DNA of 64,000 bases from Sinomonas susongensis (GTDB taxonomy: Bacteria > Actinomycetota > Actinomycetes > Actinomycetales > Micrococcaceae), in NCBI RefSeq assembly GCF_005877005.1, contig NZ_SSNH01000015.1, positions 1 to 64,000 on the forward strand, read 5' to 3'. The position numbers were made by a program, and so were the translations under genes. The notes under the pieces were generated by a model, which saw only the letters and a list, made by a program, of their open reading frames with translations, had not been told where the DNA came from and ran no database searches. Below, piece after piece: positions 9,563-58,408 of this stretch (position 1 is the stretch's first letter; each line of letters starts with the position of its first letter).

Positions 9563-10276
9563 GTGTCCGAGACCAATGAGGGCCCCGATCAGTCCGAGCC
9601 GTCGCGGCCGTCCGCCGACGAGCGCCCAACCGAGCCGATCTCCCGCGAGCATCGGCACGCGACGAGCCCCATCCCACCGGTTCCCCAGGCGCCCACGGTT
9701 CCCGGCGGCTCCGCCTCCCCGTACGGCGCGGCCGGCGCGCACAGCCAGAATCCGTCTGGGCAGAACGCGTCTGGCCAGAACCCCTACGGCCAGAACCCCT
9801 ACGGCCAGAACCCCTACAGCCAGCCCCAGGGCAGCAGCCCCTACAGCCAGAGCCCCTACGGGCAGGGCTCCTACGGGCAGGGCCCTTACAGCAGCAGCCC
9901 GTACGGGCAGGGCTCCCAGAGCCAGCCCACCCCGCCGCCCTACGGACAGCAGTACCCGCCGTCGTACGGCTACCAGCAGTGTCCGCAGCCGTACGCCTAC
10001 GCCCAGCCCGAGCCGCGCACACTCAGCATCGTCTCGATGGTGTGCGGCATCGCGTCGCTCCTCGGCTTCGGCTTTCTGCTCCTCCCGCAGCTCGCGGCGA
10101 TCGTGCTCGGCCACCTCGCCCTTTCGCGTGAGCCGGCGGGGCGGGGCTTGGCAATCGCCGGGCTCGCGACCGGCTATTTCTGCCTGCTCATCACGGTGGT
10201 CGTGATCGCGTTCATCGTGATCGGCATCGCCTCGATCAGCCAGTACCACTCGGGCTACTCAGGCGCGAATTTCTGA
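9563..10276 (+). CDS. DUF4190 membrane protein with Q/N-P-Y repeats
   Basis: A 237-residue protein starting at GTG 9563, which has GAGGGGGAG just upstream. The first 150 residues are low-complexity and disordered: a Pro/Ser/Glu-rich stretch, then repeated GQNPY and QSPYGQG units. The C-terminal third is a DUF4190 domain with two helices (about residues 153-186 and 195-226) around the segment [19 protein letters not shown]. Such actinobacterial proteins are common and mostly of unknown function; the cytoplasmic N-terminal tail may drive interactions at the membrane. The last 18 bp overlap the end of the convergent amidase gene. Confidence 0.83.
9774..9820 (+). repeat. tandem 15-bp coding repeat (GQNPY units)
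   Basis: Three consecutive near-identical 15-bp units of the form GGCCAGAACCCCTAC encode GQNPY. They sit in the disordered tail of the DUF4190 protein and are followed by degenerate variants ([15 protein letters not shown]). Copy number may vary between strains through slippage. Confidence 0.75.
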
Positions 10277-28853: not shown

Positions 28854-29801
28854 ATGCCCATCACCGTCGGGACGAAGGCCGAGCTGCGGTCTGAGATCGC
28901 GCGCCTCATGGAGGAGCATGCGGGCCGGCGGGGTGGAGGGGCGTCACTCGGGCTGGGCGACGCCTCAGCGGCCAGACCATCCCTGGGACTCGTGCCGACC
29001 ATGGGCGCCCTCCACGACGGCCACCGGAGTCTGGCCGAGGCAGCCGTCGCGGCGAACGACGTCGTCGTGGTGAGCATCTTCGTCAATCCGCTCCAGTTCG
29101 GCGACCCCGAGGACCTCGAGCGGTACCCCCGAACGCTCGAGGCGGACGTGGCGCTCCTCGACTCCATCGGCGTCGACCTCGTTTTCGCCCCCTCCGTGGA
29201 GGAGATGTATCCCGGCGGCGACCCGCTCGTGCGGGTGACCGCGGGCCCGCTTGCCGAGAAGTGGGAGGGCGCTTCGCGTCCGGGTCACTTCGACGGTGTC
29301 CTCACGGTCGTGTCGAAGCTGTTCCACCTCGCCCTGCCGGGACCTGCGGCGGGGCGTCCCGCGGTGTTCCGCGCGTACTTCGGGCAGAAGGATGCGCAGC
29401 AGGTCGCGATCGTGCGGCGCATGGTGAAGGACCTCGACTTCCCGGTCGAGGTGGTGGGGGTCCCGATTGTGCGGGCCGAGGATGGTCTCGCCCTCTCGAG
29501 CCGCAACCAGTTCCTCGATGAGCAGGACCGCGAGGCGGCACTCGTGCTCTCGCGCGCCCTGCGTCTCATGGATGAGCGGGCCGCAGCCCGCGAGCCGCTC
29601 GAGCCGGACGACGCCGTCGCCCTCATCAAGTCGCAGCCCGGCGTCGACCTCGACTATTTCGAGGTCGTGGACCCGGACACCCTCGAGCCGTTGGCCTTCA
29701 ACTGCCGCGAGACGCCCTTCACGGGTGAGGCCCTCGCGATCGTGGCAGCCCGCGTCGGCGGCGTTCGACTCATCGACAACATGCCCCTCGCCGCCCGCTG
29801 A
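28854..29801 (+). CDS. panC: pantothenate synthetase
   Basis: A 315-residue ATP-dependent ligase joining pantoate and beta-alanine. The HIGH-like motif is in [17 protein letters not shown], followed by [20 protein letters not shown]-type [17 protein letters not shown], and the KMSKS-equivalent loop [12 protein letters not shown]. The first 40 residues carry a short glycine-rich extension compared with E. coli PanC. It lies 2 bp after the DUF2520 gene. A tandem repeat block follows the stop codon directly. Confidence 0.95.
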
Positions 29802-29820: not shown

Positions 29821-29914
29821 CGTTTCGGGTACAGAAACCCGCCGGCTTCTGGCGTTTCGGGTACAGAAACCCGCCGGCTTCTGGCGTTTCGGGTACAGAA
29901 ACCCGCCCGGCAAC
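29821..29914. repeat. tandem repeat family A (3 x 32 bp)
   Basis: Three head-to-tail units of 32 bp start at 29821, 29853 and 29885, the last one incomplete. Each begins CGTTTCGGGTACAGAAACCC, where GTTTC and GAAAC can pair as a small hairpin. The units share the core TCGGGTACA with family B, but in the opposite orientation. Confidence 0.9.
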
Positions 29915-29930
29915 ATTCTGAGACGAGGCA

Positions 29931-30048
29931 GTTGGTGTACCCGAAATGGGGTGGTGGGGGGAGTTGGTGTACCCGAGATGGGGTGGTGGGGGGAGTTGGT
30001 GTACCCGAGACGGGTCGAGGGGGAGTTGGTGTACCCGAGACGGGTGGG
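29931..30048. repeat. tandem repeat family B (4 x 30-32 bp)
   Basis: Four units start at 29931, 29963, 29995 and 30025, each beginning GTTGGTGTACCCGA followed by a G-rich tail. TGTACCCGA is the reverse complement of the family A core, so the seven cores form a 3-versus-4 inverted array. The block abuts the stop codon of the hydrolase gene and would be in the 3' untranslated end of both converging transcripts. Confidence 0.9.
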
Positions 30049-30897
30049 CTAGCTCGCGAAGAAGTCCGCGAGGCGGTCCACGAGGGCCTTCGCGGGCCGC
30101 TCGGGGGCGTCGTGGGCCAGACGCGGAAGGACTCCGAAGTCGGAAGCGGGCAGCACGCCGTCGAGCGCTTCCGCGGCTTCGGCGAAGTACTCCGGACTCG
30201 CGCCGCCGACCAGGAGCAGCGTCTCGAGCGGGAGCTGCTCGAACGGCTTGGCCTTCGAATCGGCGGCGACGACGGCACGGATTTCGCGAGGGCCGGTCGG
30301 CAGGAGGCTCGTGAGCACCTTGCCGGGCTGCGTCCGGCTGCCGATGCGATTCAGGACGGTGAGGATCGGCAGCGGCAGCTTCGCGATCGGACCAGCCGTC
30401 TGGAGCCCGCGCAGGAGGACGGCGAGGGCCTTCTCCTCGTCGCCCCTGCCGAGCGCTGACTCGTAGTCCTCGAGCCAGTCGGCGTTGAAGTTCCCGTTGA
30501 AGGAGATGATGGGGTCGTAGACGGCGAGCTGCGTGATGTCGAGCGTCCGGCCCGCGTTGAGCGCGATGCACCCTCCGTAGTTGTGCCCGAACACCGACTG
30601 CGACCGCGTCTGCGCGAGGACCGCCCCCAGATCGTTCACCTCGACGGTGAGCGAATAGTCGTCCGGCTGGGGCGACGATGCCCCACGGCCGCGGCGGTTG
30701 TAGACATGGACTGGGGCGTCGAGCGCCTCGGCCAGCCGTTGCGCGAGGTCTCGGTACAGTTCCGCCGTCACCATCGAGCCGTGGACGACGACGACCCCGC
30801 CTTCCGCCCGAGCCTCGCCGGTCGCGGCGGTGAACAGCTCGAGAACAGCGCCGTCCGGAGTCGGGACGGTGGAGGCGACAAACTGGGAGGCTGCCAT
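30049..30897 (-). CDS. alpha/beta hydrolase fold protein, nucleophile serine replaced
   Basis: A 282-residue alpha/beta hydrolase. VVVHGSMVTAELYRDLAQRL gives the HG oxyanion region. The nucleophile elbow reads FGHNYGGCIAL instead of the usual GHSxGG, so the catalytic serine is an asparagine (codon AAC). LLLVGGASPEYF precedes the acid position, and a histidine occurs near the C terminus (LAHDAPERPA). It may be a non-catalytic member or use another residue. A TAGGCT box lies 6 nt before the ATG. It is divergent from lysS. Confidence 0.82.
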   Translation of the reverse strand: MAASQFVASTVPTPDGAVLELFTAATGEARAEGGVVVVHGSMVTAELYRDLAQRLAEALDAPVHVYNRRGRGASSPQPDDYSLTVEVNDLGAVLAQTRSQSVFGHNYGGCIALNAGRTLDITQLAVYDPIISFNGNFNADWLEDYESALGRGDEEKALAVLLRGLQTAGPIAKLPLPILTVLNRIGSRTQPGKVLTSLLPTGPREIRAVVAADSKAKPFEQLPLETLLLVGGASPEYFAEAAEALDGVLPASDFGVLPRLAHDAPERPAKALVDRLADFFAS

Positions 30898-58332: not shown

Positions 58333-58408
58333 GGGCCTTTAGCTCAGTTGGTAGAGCAGCGGACTTTTAATCCGCGGGTCGTGGGTTCGAGCCCCACAGG
58401 GCCCACCA
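58333..58408 (+). tRNA. tRNA-Lys(TTT)
   Basis: A complete 76-nt tRNA. The acceptor arms GGGCCTT and AGGGCCC pair (one G-T). TAGCTCAGTTGGTAGAGC is the D arm. The anticodon stem GCGGA/TCCGC holds the loop CTTTTAA with anticodon TTT. The T arm is GTGGG-TTCGAGC-CCCAC. Discriminator A is followed by an encoded CCA (58406-58408). No second copy of its 3' end was found downstream within the window, so there is no sign of an integrated element at this site. Confidence 0.97.

Follow-up and report, generated by a model that had tools for sequence, protein, structure and literature searches.

Intergenic repeats at the 3′ ends of genes are usually read as RNA hairpins or as selfish palindromes. Among the described systems, the MIRUs of mycobacteria are interspersed intergenic tandem repeats of actinobacteria, about 50-100 bp long, that do not form inward dyads. 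The DNA uptake sequences of Neisseria and the USS of Pasteurellaceae number in the thousands, and inverted pairs of them downstream of genes act as terminators. Tandem sites read by proteins include the iterons, which lie in helical phase, the sites to which BldC binds head-to-tail, and the eukaryotic Pol I terminator arrays (Sal boxes with TTF-I; Reb1 sites), where tandem protein sites downstream of genes halt RNA polymerase. For BldC, directional half-sites and cooperative protein multimers are described (PMC5859096). REPs lie mostly between convergent and co-oriented genes, often no more than 20 bp from the 3′ ends when the genes converge, and CGTC REPs without a dedicated RAYT are described (PMC3733652). 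Searches of the open-licence PMC literature for Sinomonas repeats, convergent-gene repeats or roadblocks, REPs and the core string returned, in the portions of text that were available, no description of the element presented here.

This element was found in a Sinomonas window of 64 kb (the whole stretch of DNA that was analysed), between the converging genes panC, encoding a pantoate-beta-alanine ligase (28854..29801, + strand; PF02569, E 7.2e-95), and an alpha/beta-hydrolase gene (30049..30897, − strand; PF12697, E 7.7e-10). Direct reading and repeat finders identify a forward array (family A; 29821..29912, + strand) of three half-sites CGTTTCGGGTACAGAAAC with spacers, with a period of 32, and a reverse array (family B; 29927..30048, − strand) of four half-sites CRTYTCGGGTACACCAACT with spacers, spaced by 32, 32 and 30. 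The repeat finder places family A at 29821-29907 (32-bp period, 2.7 copies, 100% match) and family B at 29930-30044. The core TCGGGTACA occupies 29825..29833, 29857..29865 and 29889..29897 on the + strand (cores 1 to 3), and the core search located cores 4 to 7 on the − strand at 29936..29944, 29968..29976, 30000..30008 and 30030..30038. A central gap (29898..29935) separates the innermost forward core 3 from the innermost reverse core 4; their start-to-start distance, measured from TCGGGTAC to GTACCCGA, is 48 and belongs to a helical phase class found genus-wide (see below). The first core lies 23 bp past the panC stop codon and the hydrolase stop codon 10 bp from core 7. The first-pass annotation had described these seven cores, three forward and four reverse, at the joint 3′ end of panC and a hydrolase, and both the layout and the location are borne out by the repeat finders and the Pfam matches. 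A search of the 64-kb window against Rfam 15 gave no match to the array above the gathering score, the only hit being a tRNA at 58333-58405. Elsewhere in the window, a 237-residue protein with hydrophobic stretches towards its C-terminus has, in its N-terminal half, a GQNPY-like repeat rich in Gln/Asn/Pro/Tyr/Gly/Ser, encoded by 15-bp and 45-bp tandem repeats at 9744-9916.

The window array is one among many such elements in the source genome (G000; 3.77 Mb, 36 contigs), in which the exact core TCGGGTACA occurs 141 times (80 + 61) versus 19 (10 + 9) for a reversed-pattern control, and in which 58 core pairs (34 + 24) are spaced by 28-35 bp versus none for the control. These controls rule out chance low complexity, in agreement with the initial impression that the array was not random. 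An assembly artefact is ruled out as well, tandem pairs being also present in G002, G004 (Sinomonas sp. R1AF57) and G009, where single chromosome-sized contigs (4.4, 3.9 and 4.5 Mb, respectively) hold all the listed tandem-pair matches. The spacers between cores are mostly repeated inside a locus in G000, and only the core and its flanks are repeated between loci. The consensus of 864 exact-core units reads C-G-T-Y (frequencies 0.82, 0.77, 0.91 and 0.98), TCGGGTAC, R-S-M-W-A, followed by a C-rich spacer, the tail having two main versions, RG(A/C/T)(T/A)A-like or RCCAA-like. In the Sinomonas loci that were fetched, mostly picked for arrays, only 3 of 390 strong-motif sites fall inside genes. 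The element thus resembles the uptake sequences in its short invariant core, over-represented genome-wide, but differs from them in avoiding genes, in being rarer and in being arrayed in tandem.

Tandem core pairs are present in 7 of the 15 Sinomonas species, the control giving none in all 15. Their number per genome is 192 in G001 (S. albida LC13), 69 in G009, 58 in G000, 12 in G004, 9 each in G006 (S. humi MUSC 117) and G010 (S. gamaensis NEAU-HV1) and 4 in G002. No tandem pair was detected in 230 further genomes from 31 other genera, drawn evenly across the family. The looser motif WYTCGGGTACRSMNA gives a similar picture, with 302 matches in G001, 225 in G009, 156 in G006, 124 in G000, 79 in G010, 42 in G004 and 20 in G002. 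Each of the remaining eight Sinomonas genomes has 0 to 4 matches, and so does each of 225 other genomes, in which the reversed control gives 0 to 3. In a scan of the whole collection for the tandem pair, 59 of the 104 stretches among the matches listed belong to Sinomonas and 45 to scattered other organisms; of the latter, 33 are given with counts, and all but one of these have a single match. Since simple arithmetic predicts about 60 chance matches in 257 Gb, the 45 listed stretches outside Sinomonas could be due to chance. The first-pass annotation had proposed a search of the core through the genome and its relatives, and had allowed that the units might occur only here, kept in no relative, or be an assembly artefact. 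The search found many copies and seven species, so that a strain-private repeat is ruled out, and neither of these two outcomes occurred.

Opposed core pairs, defined as TCGGGTAC at most 60 bp from GTACCCGA, are more widespread than tandem pairs. They were found in 14 of the 15 Sinomonas genomes (control 0), although some of the matches fall inside genes, as in L221. Among the species without exact-core tandem pairs, between 5 and 10 such matches were counted in each of G005, G008, G011 and G013, while G012 has two, G003 and G014 one each and G007 none. The loci L214 and L215 carry a four-core dyad with the layout > 32 > 16 < 32 <. On a tree of PanC and the hydrolase, the seven species with at least 20 motif matches require three changes, two of which are forced by well-supported branches. 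Fourteen regions of S. albida (e.g., L230, L231, L239 and L249) have one and the same exact 25-mer palindrome, TCGGGTACAGATSATCTGTACCCGA, as their innermost opposed pair, which suggests recent copying or conversion.

The elements are located at gene 3′ ends. In loci picked for the motif, with genes called by a custom codon-usage script, 88 element-bearing intergenic regions are convergent, 63 tandem and 6 divergent, versus 56, 254 and 112 element-free regions, respectively; these counts overstate the frequency of the element, since the loci were fetched for carrying cores. Within a set of 77 regions, the first core of convergent regions begins a short way past the stop codon, at 3-30 nt in 60 of 82 cases. 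The orientation rule rests on this set, which was fetched by core, tandem pair or panC, whereas later loci were fetched by opposed pairs. The cores point inward ('><') in 47 of its regions, against one '<>', one '><><' and 28 one-sided regions. Counted as neighbours within a region, 522 cores share the orientation of the next one, 124 face inward and 4 outward. The inward order is the commonest in the tandem regions of the 77-region set too (14 of 26), indicating that the inward dyad is intrinsic to the element and is not set by the direction of transcription. In the larger set that includes loci fetched by opposed pairs, 50 of 63 tandem regions read '><'. We also considered that each array might simply serve its own gene as a 3′ UTR element on the sense strand; sense orientation is trivial in convergent regions, and the idea was dropped because reverse units are also present in tandem regions. 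The close opposed-pair regions lie in the origin-proximal half of the chromosome in 13 of 14 cases in G009 (contig C1, 4.46 Mb) and in 3 of 6 in G002 (contig C1, 4.41 Mb), dnaA being near coordinate 0 in both and core-gene density being left uncontrolled; this bias was not used as evidence. The corresponding figure for G004 (7 of 13) is meaningless, no dnaA being recognised in its first 5 kb.

The first-pass annotation had suggested a mobile REP-like unit, and the niche part of this suggestion stands: like REPs and BIMEs, including the GTAG- and CGTC-tagged superfamilies, the element consists of many short, high-copy extragenic repeats (as the motif count of G000 illustrates) with a similar preference for 3′ ends. 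The idea of mobility does not fare as well, because no RAYT/Y1 transposase (PF01797) was detected in the 15 Sinomonas genomes, in a search that gave matches in 5 of 14 known genomes used as positive control, and because the spacers differ between loci. The architecture differs too. REPs are alternating palindromes, whereas the Sinomonas units are head-to-tail half-sites arranged as an inward dyad around a centre, with a strict pitch of 31/32 bp and 10.4-bp phasing across the dyad, and the alternating orientation of BIMEs is not seen in the neighbour counts above. To judge from the folds of two of them (see below), the window units lack the imperfect palindrome of 20-40 bp with a short loop that makes a REP unit, the strong palindromes observed arising instead between opposed units. 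The CGTY that precedes the units recalls the CGTC tag of REPs, which is unpaired and at one end, but it is found at both ends of the dyad, where it would pair. With respect to MIRUs, the element shares the condition of intergenic tandem repeats in actinobacteria and differs in its inward dyads.

The spacings are quantised in helical turns. Same-orientation neighbours lie 30-33 bp apart in 504 of 522 cases (31 bp in 372, 32 in 128, 33 in three and 30 in one), with a mean of 31.26 bp (n = 504), that is 3 x 10.42 or three helical turns. The innermost opposed distances cluster at 16-19, 26-27, 36-38, 45-49, 56-59, 65-69 and 79-80, with few values outside these clusters (10, 31, 34). For the 115 of 124 opposed distances that do not exceed 140 bp, the best period is 10.36 (R 0.75). 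The phase is strong below 45 bp (R 0.82, n = 58) and at 45-100 bp (R 0.77, n = 48), is absent from gaps of 101-140 bp (R 0.28, n = 9) and is thus lost beyond about 100 bp; in these wide gaps, a terminator-like hairpin is often located between the arrays. The signal persists when 99 different centre sequences are counted once each (R 0.72) and when each of 67 flanking-gene groups contributes a single region per draw (500 draws; mean R 0.76, minimum 0.69), a grouping that needs both flanking genes to match and may leave some orthologues uncollapsed. Counting each distance value once (n = 40) gives R 0.49, a value reached by none of 2000 random sets. Among the species, the phase is strongest in G009 (R 0.94, n = 14) and G011 (R 0.94, n = 10), intermediate in G000, G001, G006 and G010 (R 0.77-0.82), and weak or absent in G004 (0.61, n = 13) and G002 (0.39, n = 6). 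As a control, the distance from stop codon to first core (n = 209) departs weakly from uniformity at each of the five periods tested (R 0.15-0.21) and shows no peak at 10.4. Since the short centres form three classes, at 17, 26.5 and 37, with steps of about ten bases, multiples of the 31-bp unit are not the cause of the periodicity. In its directional repeats set in helical phase, the Sinomonas element is akin to iterons and BldC sites; it differs from them in being dispersed over many gene ends, not confined to a replicon origin or promoter, and in the inverted pairing of two arrays.

This phasing favours the protein-binding array that the first-pass annotation had listed among its candidates, the spacings being quantised both within and between the two families. 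That annotation had dealt with the window array; beyond it, this array turns out to be one of many, inward orientation to be a rule and the spacings to be helically phased.

In the main rival of a transcriptional role, the arrays would act as topological elements like BIME-2, drawing gyrase, or a nucleoid protein that recruits it, and organising the chromosome without stopping transcription. Positive supercoils pile up at gene ends, and the element shares the niche of REPs, between convergent and co-oriented genes and rarely between divergent ones. Three findings from E. coli speak for this reading: the G/C content of the gyrase motif varies in phase every 10 bp, cleavage by gyrase is more frequent past the ends of highly transcribed operons, and BIME-2s are strong gyrase sites independent of transcription (PMC6379681). 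Yet gyrase is universal, whereas tandem core pairs were found in only one of the 32 genera sampled and the motif is near absent from several Sinomonas species. The invariant 8-bp core with its directional tail also exceeds the specificity of known gyrase preferences. In E. coli, moreover, the attraction of gyrase downstream of transcription seems not to be hard-wired in the sequence (PMC6379681). We therefore regard control of topology as doubtful, while keeping it as the principal competitor.

It had also been proposed that RNA from either strand could fold family A cores onto family B cores over long range. This holds for the core itself but not beyond it. When innermost opposed units at distances of at least 45 are compared (n = 66), closer pairs being left aside because they overlap, the identity of the tails is 0.497 versus 0.492 for random units and that of the spacers 0.368 versus 0.362. 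Same-side neighbours (n = 501), by comparison, reach 0.78 for the tails and 0.61 for the spacers. In the array species, the same innermost class (n = 54) gives 0.53 versus 0.53 for tails and 0.37 versus 0.35 for spacers against random units of the same genome. Folded singly, the two sides of the window array behave about like shuffled sequences (z −1.22 and −1.31), as do two single window units (z −0.27 and −1.15). Because the resemblance between the innermost units of the two sides does not exceed that of random ones, we treat the half-sites as separate units. Phased spacings combined with the lack of match between left and right units argue that the units are read as double-stranded DNA by a protein on one face, and against a long-range RNA fold.

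An element acting at the RNA level, in which opposed cores would pair as hairpins and so end transcription or shield the 3′ ends of mRNAs, nevertheless finds some support in the simplest elements. Two of these form near-perfect hairpins, namely L214, a palindrome of four cores (z −13.2), and L307, found between grpE and dnaJ in G000 (z −9.4); part of L300 that includes opposed cores folds with z −4.3. Tails of the second rank match across the dyad in G005, G008, G011 and G013 (0.87 versus 0.69 for same-genome random units, n = 9). In the array species, outer-rank tails are slightly above random as well (0.63 versus 0.55 for the second rank, n = 74; 0.61 versus 0.56), whereas outer-rank spacers do not match (0.37 versus 0.41 and 0.40 versus 0.40). 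Simple elements are thus strongly palindromic, while in arrays the palindromy decays and the phase and the core remain. The palindromes of L214 and L307 and the outer-rank tails leave room for a role as RNA or cruciform, but folding predicts no gaps quantised by 10.4 bp, and a general explanation at the RNA level appears unlikely to us. We take the reading as DNA to be primary and keep the RNA reading as a rival.

The window locus lacks the build of an intrinsic terminator (a GC-rich hairpin followed by a T run), with no T-tailed terminator-like site on either strand between 29700 and 30150, although some other loci have strong hairpins between their arrays. With a custom script and a cut-off chosen for this analysis, strong hairpins not made by cores were detected in 15 of the 41 convergent regions that lack the element, in 7 of 46 regions with opposed arrays less than 60 bp apart, and in 20 of 40 regions with wider or one-sided arrays. 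The shortage in tight arrays (Fisher p 0.03 versus element-free regions and 0.0009 versus wider or one-sided ones) may come from the shorter length of these regions (median 208 bp for tight arrays versus 267 bp for wide ones); tight arrays may also stand in for a terminator. A strong hairpin with an ACGACG or CGACG arm recurs between opposed arrays (centres of L017, L028, L100, L124 and L264) and is also present in the element-free convergent regions L098, L165 and L196; it may correspond to a standard Sinomonas terminator.

The base composition raises another possibility, namely that the arrays are Rho-loading (rut) sites whose C-rich 3′ UTR RNA recruits Rho. Indeed, convergent 3′ ends without the element (C 0.38, G 0.35) contain less C than the spacers (C 0.45, G 0.23) or the stretch from stop codon to first core (C 0.54, G 0.23). 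In the tandem regions of the six array species, however, forward and reverse units are equally rich in C when each is read on its own strand, which for reverse units is the antisense one (skew 0.30 for reverse versus 0.32 for forward units), so that C-richness follows the orientation of the unit and not transcription, giving no support for Rho loading. Rut sites, moreover, need no invariant core, and we consider this explanation very improbable.

The same intergenic regions carry the element in different species. When only element-bearing regions are counted, those with the same two flanking genes form 33 groups, of which 26 span at least two species and 19 at least three, the other seven holding a single genome. 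Between panC and the hydrolase, dyads with 2-5 units per side and differing spacers are present in six species (G000, G001, G004, G006, G009 and G010), whereas the gap of eight species, 9-81 bp long, contains no element. In G011, this gap contains other tandem repeats instead of the core: in L206, after the end of panC at 2403, there is an inverted pair of short CGARRTGGGG-like tandem repeats with, by eye, a spacing of roughly 22 bp, a different motif with the same design. The most widespread group corresponds to a dyad between grpE and dnaJ, present in ten species (L307, L319, L321, L323, L325 and others; the genes were recognised by Pfam in G000). A hairpin with the same core is located between grpE and dnaJ in G014 (L222) too, and a locus of G003 (L223) shows the same layout. 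As grpE and dnaJ often form one operon elsewhere, a full terminator is unlikely at this place, and the dyad could set the ratio of dnaJ to grpE.

This recurrence bears on the hypothesis that the arrays are selfish or neutral repeats, with no function for the host, which would have expanded through slippage or unequal exchange where 3′ ends tolerate them. Several observations fit this scenario: the spacers of same-side neighbours are more alike (see above) than those of random units (0.36), the copy number varies from 1 to 9 units per side (species means and maxima), and more than half of the species have no element in the panC gap. However, the core is constant from locus to locus, and the core, the inward order and the helical phase persist between the same flanking genes while the spacers turn over. 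Neutral spread would, in addition, have to proceed in 15 genomes in which no Y1/RAYT transposase was detected. We judge this scenario quite unlikely.

We propose that the array is a dyad of tandem half-sites, each composed of C-G-T-Y-TCGGGTAC-R-S-M-W-A and a C-rich spacer, that would be read by a sequence-specific protein. As consecutive half-sites of one side are spaced by 31 or 32 bp, or three helical turns, and the gap over which the two sides face each other steps by one turn, all protomers could sit on one face of the DNA, touching along each side and across the centre. The resulting protein complex between transcription units may insulate them or, at gene 3′ ends, act on RNA polymerase as a roadblock or backstop. 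That the array is double-stranded DNA read by a protein seems probable to us; if so, a barrier to transcription or an insulator is its likelier function, and we give the complete proposal, a protein-read dyad with this function where genes end, a probability of roughly 45%. The frequent dyads of tandem regions, the loss of phase in wide gaps, the weak or absent phase in G002 and G004 and the strong RNA folds of the simplest elements speak against it. A functional parallel would be the Pol I terminator arrays, which also have tandem sites downstream of genes; the Sinomonas element differs from them in being bacterial and a symmetric dyad. By analogy, one can tentatively imagine that Sinomonas possesses a dedicated protein-based system of transcription ending or insulation, in which a putative protein polymerises on one side of the helix over the inward-facing, three-turn half-sites as in Sal-box/TTF-I arrays and replaces or backs up termination by hairpins and Rho.

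The phased array is a variant in the construction of intergenic 3′-end repeats. Hundreds of natural variants with helix-tuned spacing, both within and between arrays, point to a protein on double-stranded DNA. If the arrays recruit gyrase, they would be a non-enterobacterial answer to BIME-2. If they stop or insulate RNA polymerase, bacteria would have a dedicated, DNA-bound mode of transcription ending that varies between the species of a single genus.
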